From Allomuricauda sp. (GTDB lineage: Bacteria > Bacteroidota > Bacteroidia > Flavobacteriales > Flavobacteriaceae), in assembly GCF_002699205.1 (NCBI RefSeq), contig NZ_PABT01000037.1:1-64000 (forward strand): a stretch of DNA of 64,000 bases. The letters run 5' to 3'. Of this stretch, positions 53,245 through 59,220 are shown piece after piece. A program made the position numbers and the translations under genes. How positions within the stretch are numbered: position 1 is the first letter of the stretch; the number at the start of each line of letters is the position of its first letter. The notes beneath the pieces were generated by a model, which was given only the letters and a program-made list of their open reading frames with translations, did not search any database and was not told the origin of the DNA.

Positions 53245-54321
53245 TTAAAATATCTCTGACGCTTCTTTAAGCTTTTCAGTGTTTTCCACCAACATCAATT
53301 CATCAATTATTTTTTGAATATCGCCATTCATAATATTTTGCAGATCATATAGCGTAAGGCCTATTCTGTGGTCCGTAACCCTTCCTTGCGGATAGTTGTA
53401 GGTACGGATTTTGGCCGAACGGTCGCCACTGCTTACTTGCGAATTACGCTTGGCGGCATCCTCAGCCTGTTTTTTGGCCAATTCCATATCGTACAAACGT
53501 GAACGAAGCACCTTAAAAGCCTTGTCCTTGTTCTTGTGCTGTGACTTTTCATCCTGACATTGGGCAACAATACCAGTTGGTTCGTGGGTCAAACGTACAG
53601 CAGAGTAGGTAGTGTTCACAGATTGCCCACCAGGTCCCGAGGAACAGAAATAATCTATCCGCACGTCCTTCGGGTCTATCTGAACATCAAATTCCTCCGC
53701 TTCGGGAATCACCATGACGGTAGCCGCACTGGTGTGCACCCTACCTTGGGTCTCGGTCTGTGGCACACGTTGTACCCGGTGCACCCCTGCTTCAAACTTA
53801 AGGGTCCCGTAGACATCTTCACCATTTACCTCGAAATGGATTTCCTTATAACCACCACTGGTTCCCTCGTTCAAATCGATAACATTGGTCTTCCAACCTT
53901 TGGATTCACAATATTTGGTGTACATACGGAACAAATCGCCCGCAAAAATACTGGCCTCGTCCCCTCCGGTTCCTGCCCTGATCTCCATCACCACGTTCTT
54001 TTCATCTTCGGGGTCTTTGGGAATCAACAACAATTTTATTTCTTCTTCCAATTTGGGCAAGGCACTCTTGGCCTCATCCAATTGCATCTTGGCCATTTCC
54101 AACATTTCGGTGTCGCTGCCATCGGCAATGATCTCCTCAGCTTCCTTAATATTGTTGGTAAGGGTTATATATTCGTCGCGTTTGTCGCTGAGCAATTTTA
54201 AATCCTTGTACTCCTTGTTCAGCTTCACGTACCTTTTTTGGTCCGCAATAATATCGGGTTGTATGATAAGGTCCGAAACCTCATCAAAACGCTGTTTTAC
54301 TATGTTGAGTTTGTCTAGCAT
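53245..54321 (-). CDS. prfA: Peptide chain release factor 1
   Basis: 358 residues. The codon-reading motif Pro-Gln-Thr (Pro-x-Thr type of RF1) lies in Val-Pro-Gln-Thr-Glu-Thr-Gln-Gly-Arg, and the catalytic Gly-Gly-Gln is in [10 protein letters not shown]. It ends translation at UAA and UAG. Length and domains are standard; with pyrF downstream it may form a two-gene unit. Confidence 0.95.
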
Positions 54322-54389: not shown

Positions 54390-55685
54390 TCAGTTACCCA
54401 CAAAAGTAGTCCCCAAGGTAACAATGAATGCATTGAGGCCATCACTACGGTCATATTGACTAAAACGGAGATTGATGGTCTTCAGTCCAAAATTAAGCAC
54501 TCTGGCACTTGTAAAAATATCTTTGTACTGTACCCCTACCCCATATTGATGGGCATTATACCCTGAAAGATCGTAGTCCGAAGTATAGAATTCATACGTG
54601 GACAGTGCCTGCTCTTTGGGGTAAAAGTAATCAGCTGCAGTCTGGGTATAGTATCGGTAACTTGGATACAGCGTAAACTTATCGGTAAGTTTAAAAGGAA
54701 CCTCCAAACTGGCGGTATGCGAACTTATTCCCCAATCGTCCCAATAAAAACGATAGTACGAACGCAACACCACCAAATCATTCAAATAGTAATTCAATCG
54801 ACCTCCAATGGGTATTTTGAACCTACTATCGGGTAATTGCTCCACATTGTCCGCCAACTGAAAATCATCGATATAGAAATCTTCGAAATCTGAAAAATAC
54901 ACTCTTTGGAACGGGGTGCTCAACAATCCGTTCTGGGAAACCACATCCATAAAAAGAGCTCCTTGTAACTTTTGGCTCAAGATCTGTGAAAAGCTTAACG
55001 AAAGGGAATAGGAATTTCGTTTTTCATCCTCAAATGCTGAAAAAATAGGGTCATACGTACCGTTTCCCGTAATTCTACTATCAAAAAAGCCATCTGTCAA
55101 TTCAATCGGGTACTGTGAGTTCCATTTATCCAAAAACACATTACCGCTCAGGGTGATTTCCGTATTCTTTTCATTGAACAATTTGGTGTAACTCCCCCCA
55201 AAACCAATAGAAAAATAATCGTACTCCGATGAAACATAAGCATTGGCGCTCCATATGGAATTACGGTCGTCGGAACTGTGCTGGTAACTTGGATTGATAT
55301 AGACCAGTAAATCTTTCCTCGATTCCCCCGAAGAAGCATCAAAAGGTGTTACATTAAGACCACCATCCAAAGGGTTCACATTACTGGAAGACGCCGATGT
55401 ATACGCTGACAGACCAACATCCACGGTCAATATATCATCTTCGTTCATGGGCATCCGCAAAACAATGCTCGAGGTGGCATCCGTTAACTCCTCGGTACCT
55501 TCTCCCCCTGTTACGGCTGCATTTTCCCCATCTTGATTGTAATAACTAAAAAGCAAATCGACCTCACTTGACTCCAAAACCCTCCGCTTGTATGAAGTAT
55601 CGTTCTGTTGGGACCAGCATAATGATGCCATAAAAATAAACAAGACTATGGAAACGAATTTTGTTGGTCTGGACAACTGGGTCAT
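54390..55685 (-). CDS. DUF3570 outer-membrane beta-barrel
   Basis: 431 residues from the ATG at 55685, chosen because it starts the signal peptide Met-Thr-Gln-Leu-Ser-Arg-Pro ending Cys-Trp-Ser-Gln. The longer frame to 55805 translates a repeat element (55737-55818). The body is strand-rich with the family start Arg-Val-Leu-Glu-Ser-Ser-Glu-Val-Asp-Leu-Leu-Phe-Ser-Tyr-Tyr and ends in Leu-Gly-Thr-Thr-Phe-Val-Gly-Asn. Predicted barrel; function unknown. It is the last gene of a minus-strand row with DUF4266, ApbE, thioredoxin and Rieske proteins, so it is probably part of their pathway. Confidence 0.85.
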   Translation of the reverse strand: MTQLSRPTKFVSIVLFIFMASLCWSQQNDTSYKRRVLESSEVDLLFSYYNQDGENAAVTGGEGTEELTDATSSIVLRMPMNEDDILTVDVGLSAYTSASSSNVNPLDGGLNVTPFDASSGESRKDLLVYINPSYQHSSDDRNSIWSANAYVSSEYDYFSIGFGGSYTKLFNEKNTEITLSGNVFLDKWNSQYPIELTDGFFDSRITGNGTYDPIFSAFEDEKRNSYSLSLSFSQILSQKLQGALFMDVVSQNGLLSTPFQRVYFSDFEDFYIDDFQLADNVEQLPDSRFKIPIGGRLNYYLNDLVVLRSYYRFYWDDWGISSHTASLEVPFKLTDKFTLYPSYRYYTQTAADYFYPKEQALSTYEFYTSDYDLSGYNAHQYGVGVQYKDIFTSARVLNFGLKTINLRFSQYDRSDGLNAFIVTLGTTFVGN

Positions 55686-55736
55686 AAGGTTTTTTAAATA
55701 TTGAATACTCGCTATCTGTAATAATCTCCTTTTGCA

Positions 55737-55818
55737 CGTCATTCCAAATTTATTTCGGAATCTCATTACACTAGTTATCAAAAGCCAAATGAGAACCTGA
55801 AACAAGTTCAGGTTGACG
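55737..55818. repeat. REP/MITE-like inverted-repeat element
   Basis: Two 31-bp arms in inverted order (55737-55767 and 55788-55818) begin and end with CGTCA and TGACG and match at about two thirds of positions. Each arm contains its own small hairpin (for example ACCTGAAAC with GTTTCAGGT-like pairing). The sequence type (CATTCC ... TTTCGGAATCTC) is, from memory, common between genes in Flavobacteriia. It lies between the DUF4266 and DUF3570 genes. Confidence 0.6.
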
Positions 55819-55882
55819 AAAATTTTGTTTATGGCAAAATCTGGACAATCATTTTTTTATATTAATCATTTGAAGTTCTCAT

Positions 55883-56092
55883 TCAATTACATCCGCATCC
55901 ACCTCCTGTTTTACCACCGTTGGCACCGGAGGAAGCCTCTCTATAAACATGAAAATTGGTTTCGAACCGCTCGCACGGCCTTGCACTCAATTGCATCTCC
56001 TCATCGTTCAGGTAAACCTTGTCGTACTCACGCACGGCAACACAAGAACTTGAAAGAATCAAAAGTAATAATAGGACAAACGCTTTTCCCAT
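55883..56092 (-). CDS. DUF4266 small lipoprotein with Gly-Cys-Gly-Cys-Asn tail
   Basis: 69 residues: a lipoprotein signal peptide with Leu-Ser-Ser-Ser-Cys17, a short body with Cys40 and the conserved-looking Met-Gln-Leu-Ser, then Ser-Ser-Gly-Ala-Asn-Gly-Gly-Lys-Thr and the final Gly-Gly-Gly-Cys-Gly-Cys-Asn. The whole mature protein has only about 52 residues, so the Gly/Cys tail must be central to its role: metal binding, a redox pair, or a modification site. Its neighbours are ApbE (12 bp upstream) and DUF3570. The mechanism is unknown. Confidence 0.85.
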   Translation of the reverse strand: MGKAFVLLLLLILSSSCVAVREYDKVYLNDEEMQLSARPCERFETNFHVYREASSGANGGKTGGGCGCN

Positions 56093-56104
56093 ACCTTAAA
56101 TGTA

Positions 56105-57100
56105 CTAATTCGTATCGAACACTATGCCCGAACTTCGGTGAACTTTGTTCTCACCATCCACCACCACGGCCTCAACACCATCAATCTGATTGATCAGATG
56201 AAGGCCGACATCCCTGCCCATGATAAAAACTGCTGTGGCCAGGGCATCACACAATTCAGCTTGTTTTGCAAAAATCGATACGCTATTTATTCCTTTGGTA
56301 GGATACCCGGTCCGAGGGTCGATAATATGTGAATATTTTTCCCCATCCAGGACGATGTATTTTTCATAATTGCCCGATGTTGCCACGGAAGACTCTATTA
56401 CGGGCAACCAACTGAACACTTTATCCTTGCTAAGCGGATTGGCAATGCCGACCAACCATTTTTCCCCTGTCACTTTGGTTCCCCAAGTGGTAAGGTCTCC
56501 AGAAGCATTGATTATTCCGCCCCGAACATCTTTGGACACCAGAAGTTCTTTGGCTTTATCCGCGGCATATCCTTTTCCAATGGCACCAAATCCTATGCAC
56601 ATCCCTTTTTCGGGCAAAAACACGGTTTGGTTCTTCTTATCCAATTGTATTTTTTGGTATCCTACTTTTGAAACGGACTTTTTGATTTTTTCTTCTGTGG
56701 GAACTTTATCCATGGTGCCATCAAATTTCCAAATCTCATCCATGGATGCATAGGTGATATCGAAAGCGCCATCGGTAATCTCAGATATTTTGATGGAACG
56801 CTCAATCAAATCGAACAACTCTTTGCTCACCTTTACAGGTTTAATGCCTGCATTTTTGTTGATCAGGGAAGTTTCGGAATCCTTGTCCCAAGACGAGATG
56901 ATTTTTTCAATACGTTCAATTTCCGAGACGGCCTCGTCTATATTTATATAGCCTATCTCCTCGTTTAGGGCCACTACGGTGATCTCAAACCGGGTCCCCA
57001 TCAGTTTTAGCGTCTTTTTCACGGTTACATAATCCTGTTTTCCCTGTCCATAGGAAAGCAAACAAAATAAACCGCACAAAAAAGACACAAACATTTTCAT
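56105..57100 (-). CDS. apbE: FAD:protein FMN transferase, ApbE family
   Basis: 331 residues with a signal peptide (about 1-18), so it acts outside the cytoplasm. Family motifs: Met-Gly-Thr-Arg-Phe-Glu-Ile, Gly-Ala-Phe-Asp-Ile-Thr, Phe-Gly-Ala-Ile-Gly-Lys-Gly-Tyr-Ala-Ala-Asp, Ile-Asn-Ala-Ser-Gly-Asp-Leu, His-Ile-Ile-Asp-Pro-Arg-Thr-Gly-Tyr-Pro, and Cys-Asp-Ala-Leu-Ala-Thr-Ala (metal site). It links FMN covalently to Thr or Ser of a target protein. No RnfG or NqrC target is nearby, so the target may be a member of this cluster. It overlaps the thioredoxin gene by 4 bp. Confidence 0.93.
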   Translation of the reverse strand: MKMFVSFLCGLFCLLSYGQGKQDYVTVKKTLKLMGTRFEITVVALNEEIGYINIDEAVSEIERIEKIISSWDKDSETSLINKNAGIKPVKVSKELFDLIERSIKISEITDGAFDITYASMDEIWKFDGTMDKVPTEEKIKKSVSKVGYQKIQLDKKNQTVFLPEKGMCIGFGAIGKGYAADKAKELLVSKDVRGGIINASGDLTTWGTKVTGEKWLVGIANPLSKDKVFSWLPVIESSVATSGNYEKYIVLDGEKYSHIIDPRTGYPTKGINSVSIFAKQAELCDALATAVFIMGRDVGLHLINQIDGVEAVVVDGENKVHRSSGIVFDTN

Positions 57101-57534
57101 TTCAGGAACTTGTTAAGCGTCTTTATATATTTCTCAGGTTTGGTACGTGCCACAAAACCTGTAGTCCCCAAGACTTGTTCATTGCTGTCCAAGACCACGA
57201 CCAAAGGAAAATAACCCTTTGGGTTATACTTTTCCGCTAAGGACTTGTTTACATTTAATTTATCTTGTGGTAGTTGATTTTTCTTTTTTCGGGGAAAATC
57301 CGCATTGTACATCACGTAATGTTCGGAAGCATAAGCTTTGAACGTTTCACTATCGAATATGTGTTTTTTTAGTCGGATACAGGGCGCGCACCAATCCGAT
57401 CCAGAAAAAACCAAAACAATGGGCTTGTCCTCAACAGTCGCCTTGGCAAGAGCATCATCAAAACTATCCTGCCATTCTTGGGCCTGGAGCATACCTGCAC
57501 AGGTAAATAACAATATGTAGACTAAATATTTCAT
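57097..57534 (-). CDS. Exported thioredoxin-like protein
   Basis: 145 residues: signal peptide ending Met-Leu-Gln-Ala-Gln, then a thioredoxin-fold domain with Phe-Ser-Gly-Ser-Asp-Trp-Cys-Ala-Pro-Cys (redox pair near 52-55) and Gly-Tyr-Phe-Pro-Leu-Val-Val-Val (cis-Pro). The Trp-Cys-x-x-Cys plus insert is like periplasmic DUF255/Thioredoxin_7 reductases. In this row it could keep the cysteines of the DUF4266 lipoprotein reduced. It overlaps apbE by 4 bp. Confidence 0.88.
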   Translation of the reverse strand: MKYLVYILLFTCAGMLQAQEWQDSFDDALAKATVEDKPIVLVFSGSDWCAPCIRLKKHIFDSETFKAYASEHYVMYNADFPRKKKNQLPQDKLNVNKSLAEKYNPKGYFPLVVVLDSNEQVLGTTGFVARTKPEKYIKTLNKFLK

Positions 57535-57553
57535 AAAATTTGGGATTCAAAAA

Positions 57554-57994
57554 CTATTCGTACACCCTTAAAATAGAACCATTGAGTTCCGTATTATAGA
57601 CTTTGAGCGCTTTTGCGGGAGTATTGTCCACTTGATTCAAGGGTGTTCCATCTTGATCAAAACGGGAACCATGTACGTCGCAATAAAAAATACCTCCGTT
57701 CTGATCCACAAAACGCACTTGGTCATAGGATTGATGACTACAGACCTGGCTGGCCGCCACATATTCCCCTTGCAGGTTTTTAGCGATAACCACCAAGTTT
57801 TTCAAAATAAACCCACCATTTTCGGAAAGATTTGACGCTTCATCAGAAGTTAGGTCGATGGTAAAGTCCACACCTGTTGGCTCCTCCACCAAGTTACCGT
57901 CCACTTCATCTTTAGAACAACCTTGTAAACAGGGAAATGTAAGGGCAAAAGCCGCCCCAGCACCTAAACTTCTTAAAAACTCTTTTCTTTCCAT
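57554..57994 (-). CDS. Rieske [2Fe-2S] lipoprotein
   Basis: 146 residues. The N terminus Arg-Lys-Glu-Phe-Leu-Arg-Ser-Leu-Gly-Ala-Gly-Ala-Ala-Phe-Ala ends in the lipobox Leu-Gln-Gly-Cys26. The Rieske ligands are Cys85-Ser-His87 and Cys105-Asp-Val-His108-Gly. The usual disulfide cysteines of cytochrome bc-type Rieske proteins are absent, so this is the ferredoxin-like, soluble type. It would carry one electron in the periplasm. First gene of the row leading to thioredoxin, ApbE, DUF4266 and DUF3570. Confidence 0.88.
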   Translation of the reverse strand: MERKEFLRSLGAGAAFALTFPCLQGCSKDEVDGNLVEEPTGVDFTIDLTSDEASNLSENGGFILKNLVVIAKNLQGEYVAASQVCSHQSYDQVRFVDQNGGIFYCDVHGSRFDQDGTPLNQVDNTPAKALKVYNTELNGSILRVYE

Positions 57995-58041: not shown

Positions 58042-59220
58042 CTAATATTCAAACTTCCCGTACTGGCTCTCGATGGTCAATTTCTTCTTTTCAGCAGCTT
58101 CCACACGGCCGATGATCTGGGCATCTACGTCAAAACTTTTGGAGATGGCCATAATTTCATCCGCAACCCCCTCATTCACATACAATTCCATACGATGCCC
58201 ACAATTGAAAACTTGGTACATTTCCTTCCAATCGGTTCCAGATTGCTCCTGAATCAATTTGAACAAAGGTGGAATGGAAAACATATTGTCTTTTATGATA
58301 TGAAGGTCATCCACAAAATGGAGAATCTTGGTCTGGGCCCCTCCACTACAATGCACCATCCCGTGTATTTCTTCCGAAGTATATTGTTCCAACACTTTTT
58401 TAATGATGGGTGCATAGGTACGGGTAGGTGAAAGCACCAATTTTCCCGCATCAAGAGGTGAACCTGGCACTTCATCCGTTAATTTGATGTTGCCGGAATA
58501 CACCAATTCTTCGGGAACGGATGCATCAAAACTTTCCGGATACTTTGCTGCAAGATATTTGGAGAACACATCATGTCTGGCAGAGGTCAATCCGTTACTG
58601 CCCATCCCCCCGTTATATTCCGTCTCGTAACTCGCTTTTCCAAAGGAAGCAAGGCCCACGATCACATCCCCTGCTCGGATATTGGCATTGTCGATCACTT
58701 TTTTTCGTTCCATTCGAGCCGTTACGGTGGAATCGACGATAATGGTACGCACCAAATCACCGACATCTGCCGTCTCCCCACCAGTGGAACGAATGGTTAT
58801 CCCATGTTTGCCCAAATCGGAAATGAGCTCCTCGGTACCATTGATGATGGCGGATATCACTTCACCTGGAATCAAATTCTTGTTACGCCCAATGGTCGAT
58901 GAAAGCATGATGTTATCGGTAGCGCCAACGCAGATCAGATCGTCCACGTTCATAATAAGCGCATCTTGGGCTATACCTTTCCATACCGAAATATCCCCGG
59001 TCTCTTTCCAGTACATATAGGCCAATGAGGATTTGGTCCCTGCACCATCGGCGTGCATGACCAAGCAATGTTCCTCGCTACCCGTCAAATAATCGGGGAC
59101 AATTTTGCAGAACGCTTTGGGAAAAAGTCCTTTATCAATATTCTTGATGGCATTGTGCACATCTTCTTTGGAGGCCGAAACACCTCGTTGGGCATATCTT
59201 TTACTGGTATCCGATGACAT
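58042..59220 (-). CDS. purM: Phosphoribosylformylglycinamidine cyclo-ligase (AIR synthetase)
   Basis: 392 residues, the long Bacteroidota form. PurM/AIRS features: Asp-Gly-Ala-Gly-Thr-Lys near 55-60, Met-Asn-Val-Asp-Asp-Leu-Ile-Cys-Val-Gly-Ala, Gly-Gly-Glu-Thr-Ala-Asp near 147, Val-Gly-Leu-Ala-Ser-Phe-Gly, and Thr-Arg-Thr-Tyr-Ala-Pro. It makes AIR from FGAM with ATP, step five of purine synthesis. A -7-like TATTTTTG lies only 15 bp before the start on the minus strand. No other pur genes adjoin. Confidence 0.92.
   Translation of the reverse strand: MSSDTSKRYAQRGVSASKEDVHNAIKNIDKGLFPKAFCKIVPDYLTGSEEHCLVMHADGAGTKSSLAYMYWKETGDISVWKGIAQDALIMNVDDLICVGATDNIMLSSTIGRNKNLIPGEVISAIINGTEELISDLGKHGITIRSTGGETADVGDLVRTIIVDSTVTARMERKKVIDNANIRAGDVIVGLASFGKASYETEYNGGMGSNGLTSARHDVFSKYLAAKYPESFDASVPEELVYSGNIKLTDEVPGSPLDAGKLVLSPTRTYAPIIKKVLEQYTSEEIHGMVHCSGGAQTKILHFVDDLHIIKDNMFSIPPLFKLIQEQSGTDWKEMYQVFNCGHRMELYVNEGVADEIMAISKSFDVDAQIIGRVEAAEKKKLTIESQYGKFEY

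Follow-up and report, generated by a model that had tools for sequence, protein, structure and literature searches.

A probable Allomuricauda flavinylation gene cluster extended by a Rieske lipoprotein and centred on a predicted outer-membrane barrel

We analysed a 64,000-nucleotide stretch of an Allomuricauda sp. genome (assembly GCF_002699205.1, contig NZ_PABT01000037.1, positions 1 to 64,000; hereafter the window) with a focus on five consecutive minus-strand genes (57994-54390). In order, they encode a Rieske [2Fe-2S] lipoprotein of 146 amino acids (57554-57994; PF00355, E 7.4e-08; lipid cysteine Cys26), a DsbH-like thioredoxin of the Thioredoxin_7 family (145 amino acids, 57097-57534; PF13899, E 2.3e-14), the FAD:protein FMN (flavin mononucleotide) transferase ApbE (331 amino acids, 56105-57100; PF02424, E 2.5e-86), a DUF4266 mini-lipoprotein (69 amino acids, 55883-56092; PF14086, E 3.1e-19; lipid cysteine Cys17) and a DUF3570 protein (431 amino acids, 54390-55685; PF12094, E 2.7e-38 in a search that used a longer frame). 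The thioredoxin and ApbE have signal-peptide-like starts, and all five proteins passed the Pfam cut-offs in a profile search. The row is flanked by purM (58042-59220) and prfA (53245-54321), both named from reading of their translations. The thioredoxin and ApbE genes overlap by 4 bp, ApbE and DUF4266 are 12 bp apart, and DUF4266 ends in Gly-Gly-Gly-Cys-Gly-Cys-Asn (Cys-Gly-Cys-Asn at 55886-55897). This layout is as described in the original prediction, which had been made from the sequence and had proposed that the five genes form one extracytoplasmic redox module. The closest named copies come from Muricauda, Allomuricauda and Flagellimonas, with DUF3570 identities of up to 91%.

To survey the gene row across genomes, DUF4266 genes and their neighbours (same strand, within 5 kb) were examined at 80 loci, namely the window and L002-L081, leaving out L057 because its DUF4266 is partial; L001 duplicates the window and was excluded. 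A draw across the phylum contributed 24 fetched places (4 from the same family, 15 from other families and 5 from one large family, f17). DUF4266 was found in 56 of 149 genomes of the family, and DUF3570 in the identical 56 (55 matches above the curated cut-off). Around the 80 DUF4266 genes, DUF3570 was present at all 80, ApbE at 78 and thioredoxin at 67, with all three together at 66; some absences may reflect contig ends. The gene row is not a chance association. The module proposed originally is borne out by this co-occurrence, and DUF4266 and DUF3570 do not occur mostly without ApbE and thioredoxin, which would have spoken against it. The Rieske gene was found near DUF4266 at 15 of the 80 loci.

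Four of the five genes correspond to a published system. A 2021 study (Meheust 2021, eLife, PMC8238504) describes clusters that combine ApbE and DUF3570 with a PF13899 thioredoxin and with a DUF4266 protein carrying a C-terminal CXC motif, with or without the membrane reductase DsbD, and 316 of the clusters lack a linked DsbD. The window has the same four genes adjacent to each other and also has the C-terminal CXC, but it adds the Rieske lipoprotein upstream. In the same study, co-expression showed that ApbE flavinylates Chlorobium luteolum DUF3570 at two motifs; the flavinylated protein was recovered from the lysis pellet, and the purpose of electron transfer by DUF3570 was called uncertain. 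The original prediction had stated that no known flavinylated carrier is present in the row. This is not supported, as DUF3570 belongs to a class shown to be an ApbE substrate (PMC8238504), and the question which the prediction had raised about the flavin target is thereby answered in print. By analogy, we infer that the DUF3570 of the window is a flavin carrier with FMN at Ser99 and Ser122.

These two residues were located by aligning all 80 DUF3570 proteins; site counts refer to the 75 with at least 300 amino acids. The two strict [S/T]GA[S/T] motifs of the f17 copies align to two columns, which elsewhere mostly read [TS]SAS and SGAS or SSAS. The acceptor position is Ser or Thr in 74 of 75 proteins at each site and in 73 at both, the exceptions being L068 at site 2 and L075 at site 1; at site 1 the acceptor is Ser in 74. 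Both sites show the strict motif in 5 proteins, 56 proteins have it at one site at least, and a relaxed [ST][GS]A[ST] pattern occurs at both sites in 67. In the window, predicted site 1 is TSAS (T96-S97-A98-S99, 55389-55400, minus strand) and predicted site 2 is SGES (S119-G120-E121-S122, 55320-55331, minus strand), where Glu replaces Ala and excludes the protein from the relaxed count. Both therefore depart from the strict motif of the published cluster (PMC8238504), where two such motifs are reported as conserved and support membership without defining it. The window row is accordingly assigned to that cluster by its gene content and not by proven flavinylation. A review of ApbE gives the motif as D-x-x-[S/T]-G-A-[S/T] and reports that changing G to A or A to V cuts flavinylation to about half; the section concerned does not mention A to E (PMC12052999). 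Site 2 of the window retains the Asp of this motif (D-A-S-S-G-E-S). Ser99 and Ser122 are both invariant across 48 aligned sequences, and both sites are among the 6 best conserved of the 75 Ser/Thr positions in the mature window protein. SGES is carried by 38 of 79 named copies, most of which come from Muricauda, Allomuricauda and Flagellimonas; of 30 loci fetched from the genus, 17 have SGES, 2 have TGES and 10 have SGAS. TSAS and SGES are putative flavinylation sites. Two DUF3570 matches were present in 26 of 60 genus genomes, and SGES and SGAS both occur among the fetched genus loci (L082-L111).

The original prediction had also pointed to Ser-Ser-Gly-Ala-Asn in DUF4266 as a loose match to a flavin target site. 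We rejected this candidate. The acceptor position is Asn in the window. In the 147 tails that could be parsed out of 155 examined, it is Asn in 141 and Ser or Thr in 5, and the preceding Ser is replaced by Ala in 59 tails. For the further suggestion that the protein itself passes through the barrel we found no evidence, although no test was aimed at it.

The residue numbers above assume that DUF3570 starts at the ATG at 55685, which is most likely the true start. A signal-peptide-like stretch comes right after this ATG. An upstream TTG at 55805 was rejected because the 120 bases between TTG and ATG largely belong to a dispersed repeat of ~85 bp (55736-55822), and because in 62 of 75 named relatives less than 100 bp separates DUF4266 from the DUF3570 match, which leaves no room for 40 extra residues. 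Match coordinates from the search for named copies have no bearing on the start, as the query used there began at the ATG. The repeat has 36 matches in the assembly including this copy, several of them clustered on contig C10, and is not part of the module.

We modelled DUF3570 with AlphaFold2 using 48 sequences (mean pLDDT 80.1, pTM 0.76). After joining broken strands, 16 strands were counted, and long and short connections alternate: connections 1-2, 3-4 and so on have ~11, 25, 2, 33, 33, 4, 27 and 5 residues and the remaining ones ~4, 5, 4, 4, 4, 4-8 and 10. The model thus has the even strand number, short periplasmic turns and long outer loops of an outer-membrane barrel. No solved relative was found by sequence (chance-level matches only, E 0.23 and above). 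The best fold matches in a second look were outer-membrane barrels, among them BamA, a polysaccharide secretin (4y25), PelB and BcsC; such a match is common to many unrelated barrels. Outer-membrane barrels generally have both termini in the periplasm. With both termini placed there, outer loop 2 has Ser99 at one end and Ser122 at the other. The model accordingly predicts that DUF3570 forms an outer-membrane barrel of 16 strands in which the two flavin serines border this loop.

In 10 of the 75 DUF3570 copies (L003, L005, L010, L011, L016, L017, L018, L019, L025 and L047), loop 2 contains an acidic run of 4 to 13 residues, always together with a third [S/T]GA[S/T] motif. These may represent a surface loop that carries several flavins and binds cations. 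Neither an acidic run nor a third motif was found in the window or in 72 parsed named relatives, and loop 2 of the window holds only two acidic residues.

The remaining core proteins have the features of a thiol relay. The thioredoxin has a W-C-A-P-C motif (C-A-P-C at 57379-57390), and CxxC is present in 68 of 69 thioredoxin copies (L001 included) and in 70 of 72 from named loci. Its best solved relative is 2ju5 (E 5.9e-17), titled Thioredoxin Disulfide Isomerase, which we take to be DsbH; the NCBIfam DsbH match of the window protein falls below its cut-off. A redoxin gene was found at 8 of the 80 loci, and at seven of these (L073, L074, L077-L081) no thioredoxin was found, as at six further loci. 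At the five fetched loci of f17, the family with strict flavin motifs, the redoxin lies directly upstream of DUF4266 in the slot of Thioredoxin_7 (one representative was checked against Pfam). The f17 family may be Chlorobiales, as its fetched DUF3570 proteins have the strict motif twice. Among L077-L081, which have the redoxin in this slot, four of the five have DsbD within the fetched stretch; overall, DsbD was found there at 7 of the 80 loci by search, or 8 with clustering added. No DsbD gene was found in the window row, and a linked DsbD is optional in the published cluster (PMC8238504). DsbD_TM matches were detected in all 149 genomes, and the window genome has a single match on another contig (G000:C10).

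DUF4266 has a C-terminal C-x-C at all 80 loci and the tail GGGCGCN at all 75 named loci in which it was read, so the cysteines highlighted in the original prediction are conserved. (Neighbour clusters were counted over 72 mapped loci, as gene calling missed DUF4266 in 9 loci.) Mature DUF4266 was modelled without a fold (mean pLDDT 52.8), which, coming from one model of just 53 residues, gives weak evidence for disorder. In 45 sequences that are 72-96% identical to the window, 25 of the 53 mature residues are invariant, in part merely through relatedness. This fits a flexible arm conserved for its contacts. Thiol steps are plausible because a CGC tripeptide has a potential of -167 mV and nDsbD one of -229 mV (values cited in PMC3173608).

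The Rieske protein has the ligands C85-x-H87 and C105-x-x-H108 of a Rieske domain. This pattern is found in 14 of 15 module-linked copies and in 69 of 69 from named loci. Rieske proteins of cytochrome bc1 and b6f complexes have the pattern C-x-H-x-x-C ... C-x-C-H, and the extra bc1-type cysteine pair was found in none of 96 copies examined. The start of the protein, MERKEFLRSLG, reads as twin-arginine-like. At the lipid cysteine, C-S-K-D-E-V (57902-57919, minus strand) matches C-X-K-(D/E)2-X, the optimal surface-export signal of Capnocytophaga (PMC5080379), which predicts a location on the cell surface. C-x-K-(D/E)2 was present in 34 of 83 Rieske copies, which are related and not independent, in none of 155 DUF4266 proteins and in 1 of 81 background sequences. 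At least two acidic residues at +2 to +6 were present in 66 of the 83 Rieske copies, in none of the 155 DUF4266 proteins and in 34 of the 81 background sequences. DUF4266 of the window has C-V-A-V-R-E, which does not fit the signal. Among 80 named loci, which are the closest relatives of the window DUF3570, the Rieske gene is present in 69, and the exact order purM-Rieske-thioredoxin-ApbE-DUF4266-DUF3570-prfA was called in 55. The gene at L065 (4753-5208) is a Rieske-like module gene that probably binds no cluster because the second ligand pair, C-x-x-H, is missing. An iron-regulated Rieske protein of Bizionia, listed alongside a cytochrome c gene of neighbouring locus tag, was read by its authors as complex III (PMC9478572); we found no link between it and the window row.

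Taken together, the window holds, with somewhat better than even confidence, a Muricauda/Allomuricauda/Flagellimonas-type copy of the published flavinylation cluster that is extended by a Rieske protein and forms an electron chain through an FMN-bearing barrel. ApbE would attach FMN to Ser99 and Ser122 of DUF3570 before or during barrel assembly, and DUF3570 would then fold into the predicted 16-stranded barrel, which places these serines at either end of outer loop 2. DsbD, encoded elsewhere, would reduce the DsbH-like thioredoxin, which would in turn reduce the unstructured Cys-Gly-Cys tail of a periplasm-facing DUF4266. This tail would hand electrons to the FMN of the barrel, and the surface-signalled Rieske lipoprotein may be the next carrier or the terminal reductase outside the cell in this lineage. 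Ferric iron is the leading guess for the final acceptor, based on genes neighbouring a minority of loci and on the acidic loops of the 10 copies. The order and direction of electron flow are inferred, and reverse flow (thiol oxidation) would also be compatible. In a more specific form that we consider doubtful, the row would be a haem-free outer-membrane conduit in which the DUF4266 tail enters the barrel and reduces surface-displayed FMN that ApbE had attached to a loop ahead of barrel folding, followed by the exported Rieske protein, and the third motif and poly-aspartate patch of some more distant relatives might be those of a dissimilatory or assimilatory metal reductase.

This chain can be compared with known systems. 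MtrCAB-type systems are outer-membrane electron conduits; the window row has no cytochrome and would use flavin, thiol and [2Fe-2S] carriers instead. A DsbH/DsbD relay is resembled by the 2ju5-related thioredoxin with its CxxC, within the limit of its sub-threshold DsbH match, but here the relay would presumably serve a CxC lipoprotein that is connected to a flavinylated barrel. Like the NqrC/RnfG FMN_bind carriers, the row has an exported ApbE that would attach FMN to Ser/Thr in a short motif, but those carriers have an FMN_bind domain in place of a predicted barrel, and the other ApbEs that we sampled, most of them encoded near FMN_bind genes, are separate from the module ApbEs in our tree, with two exceptions (see below). 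In the main text of PMC8238504, the words Rieske, barrel and porin do not appear, and outer membrane is used only for another system. DUF3570 is not mentioned in the main text of a 2024 structural survey of ApbE substrates (PMC11334425) or in that of a 2025 ApbE review (PMC12052999). Within the open-licence literature, we found no further papers on DUF3570 or DUF4266 and, among the papers listed, none linking a Rieske protein to ApbE. The core gene set is already published; what looks new is the Rieske partner, together with the probable placement of the flavins at the surface.

Several observations weigh against the proposed chain. Thioredoxin was not found at 13 of the 80 DUF4266 loci and the Rieske gene was not found at 65. 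In the window, the strict motif is missing its Gly at site 1 and its Ala at site 2. The loop bearing the sites was modelled with low confidence (pLDDT <50 at 74-76 and 93-97), so that the serines may lie outside or face the lumen. If they do lie in an outer loop, a periplasmic ApbE must modify DUF3570 before it is inserted; flavinylation before insertion is compatible with the recovery of flavinylated protein from the lysis pellet (PMC8238504). In a draw across the family, 10 Rieske genes adjoin purM without DUF4266 or DUF3570, and the loss pattern described below weakens the case for all five genes acting together in every instance.

The Rieske gene could be a mere chromosomal neighbour, with the purM-prfA slot holding a Rieske-ApbE pair and DUF4266 and DUF3570 working without Rieske. 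We hold this to be a real but lesser possibility. It would explain why Rieske lies within 5 kb of DUF4266 at just 15 of the 80 loci. It would also explain the 10 purM-adjoining places: 8 of them keep ApbE, three (L114, L117, L120) also keep thioredoxin, and L118 and L121 have neither. In six of these 10 genomes the DUF4266 module lies elsewhere and in four it is absent. At L112, L113, L115, L116 and L119, the Rieske-ApbE pair lies between purM and prfA without DUF4266, DUF3570 or thioredoxin. Two genomes with such a pair, G103 and G126 (L116 and L119), have no DUF4266 or DUF3570 match. Against a neighbour-only role, module Rieske genes occur outside the purM slot at L015, at L051, where the gene lies between those for thioredoxin and ApbE, and at L065, L067 and L071, which come from two other families, as well as at two named Arenibacter loci where Rieske is in the module and purM and prfA are not in view. 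Rieske matches (E up to 1e-6) are also enriched in genomes with DUF4266 (18 of 56 against 4 of 93; Fisher p 6e-6, with shared ancestry uncorrected).

An ApbE tree (107 rows) bears on the same question. A branch with 100/100 support separates the module copies from the other sampled ApbEs, and the window ApbE (solved relative 7esa, E 2e-51) falls on the module side. The exceptions are L143, which lies among the module copies and is the second ApbE of G127, a genome without FMN_bind, and the second ApbE of L020, which lies among the others. Of the 20 sampled other ApbEs, 16 are within 7 kb of FMN_bind, 2 are ~13 kb away, 1 is on another contig and 1 is L143. ApbEs from the eight Rieske slots that lack DUF3570 are interspersed with Rieske-module ApbEs, with at least four forced changes, so DUF4266 and DUF3570 have probably been lost several times. 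The tree would thus fit repeated loss of these two genes from a five-gene ancestor. The original prediction had treated Rieske as an equal fifth member. This holds in part: Rieske is in the module at 15 of 80 loci, but at eight fetched places it adjoins ApbE without DUF4266 and DUF3570, and it is a lineage-specific fifth gene.

The module might alternatively handle metals, with the CxC tail binding Cu(I), Zn or Fe, thioredoxin keeping the tail reduced, the barrel passing the metal and the flavin reducing it for uptake. VIT1-family transporter genes lie near 6 of the 80 loci by phmmer and 7 of the 72 mapped loci by clustering, and HlyD/CusB-type genes near 10 of the 72 (for each type, a single representative was compared with Pfam); VIT1 also occurs in 25 published clusters (PMC8238504), and acidic runs of at least 4 residues in loop 2 of 10 of 75 copies would be expected of a cation-binding patch. 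The window row has no transporter gene and its DUF3570 only two acidic residues in loop 2, the acidic run and the third motif are absent from all 72 parsed named relatives, and CxC is an equally good disulfide motif. We consider metal handling unlikely.

An FMN_bind domain (PF04205) was not detected in the five row proteins at E up to 1, nor in the window assembly (completeness 95.3%), which has a single ApbE, so no NqrC/RnfG-type flavin target was found there. FMN_bind was found in 59 of the 60 genus genomes searched, among which the window assembly is counted, and its absence from that assembly probably reflects missing sequence and not a real loss, although a lost Na+-NQR would be a possibility. 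At least two ApbE copies are present in 54 of 56 genomes with the module against 11 of 93 without it. It is improbable that flavinylation of the Muricauda-type DUF3570 has been lost at one of its sites, SGES, or at both, with ApbE serving another substrate: the divergent TSAS and SGES motifs, the slot ApbE that persists in two related genomes without DUF3570 and the near-universal FMN_bind of the genus would favour it, but Ser99 and Ser122 are invariant in the 48 aligned sequences, DUF3570 is the only recognised substrate in the window assembly (perhaps owing to the gap), and module genomes mostly have two or more ApbEs where others have one, as if FMN_bind carriers had an ApbE of their own.

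For the flavinylated-barrel chain that we favour, the predicted outer-loop flavins, the thiol lipoprotein, the Rieske protein and the relaxed sites would turn an uncharacterised redox cluster into an ordered and testable series of steps across the outer membrane. If the relaxed sites are real, searches with the strict [S/T]GA[S/T] motif undercount the flavin sites of DUF3570 (5 against 67 of 75 proteins with both sites). The module concerned is held by 56 of the 149 sampled genomes of the family.

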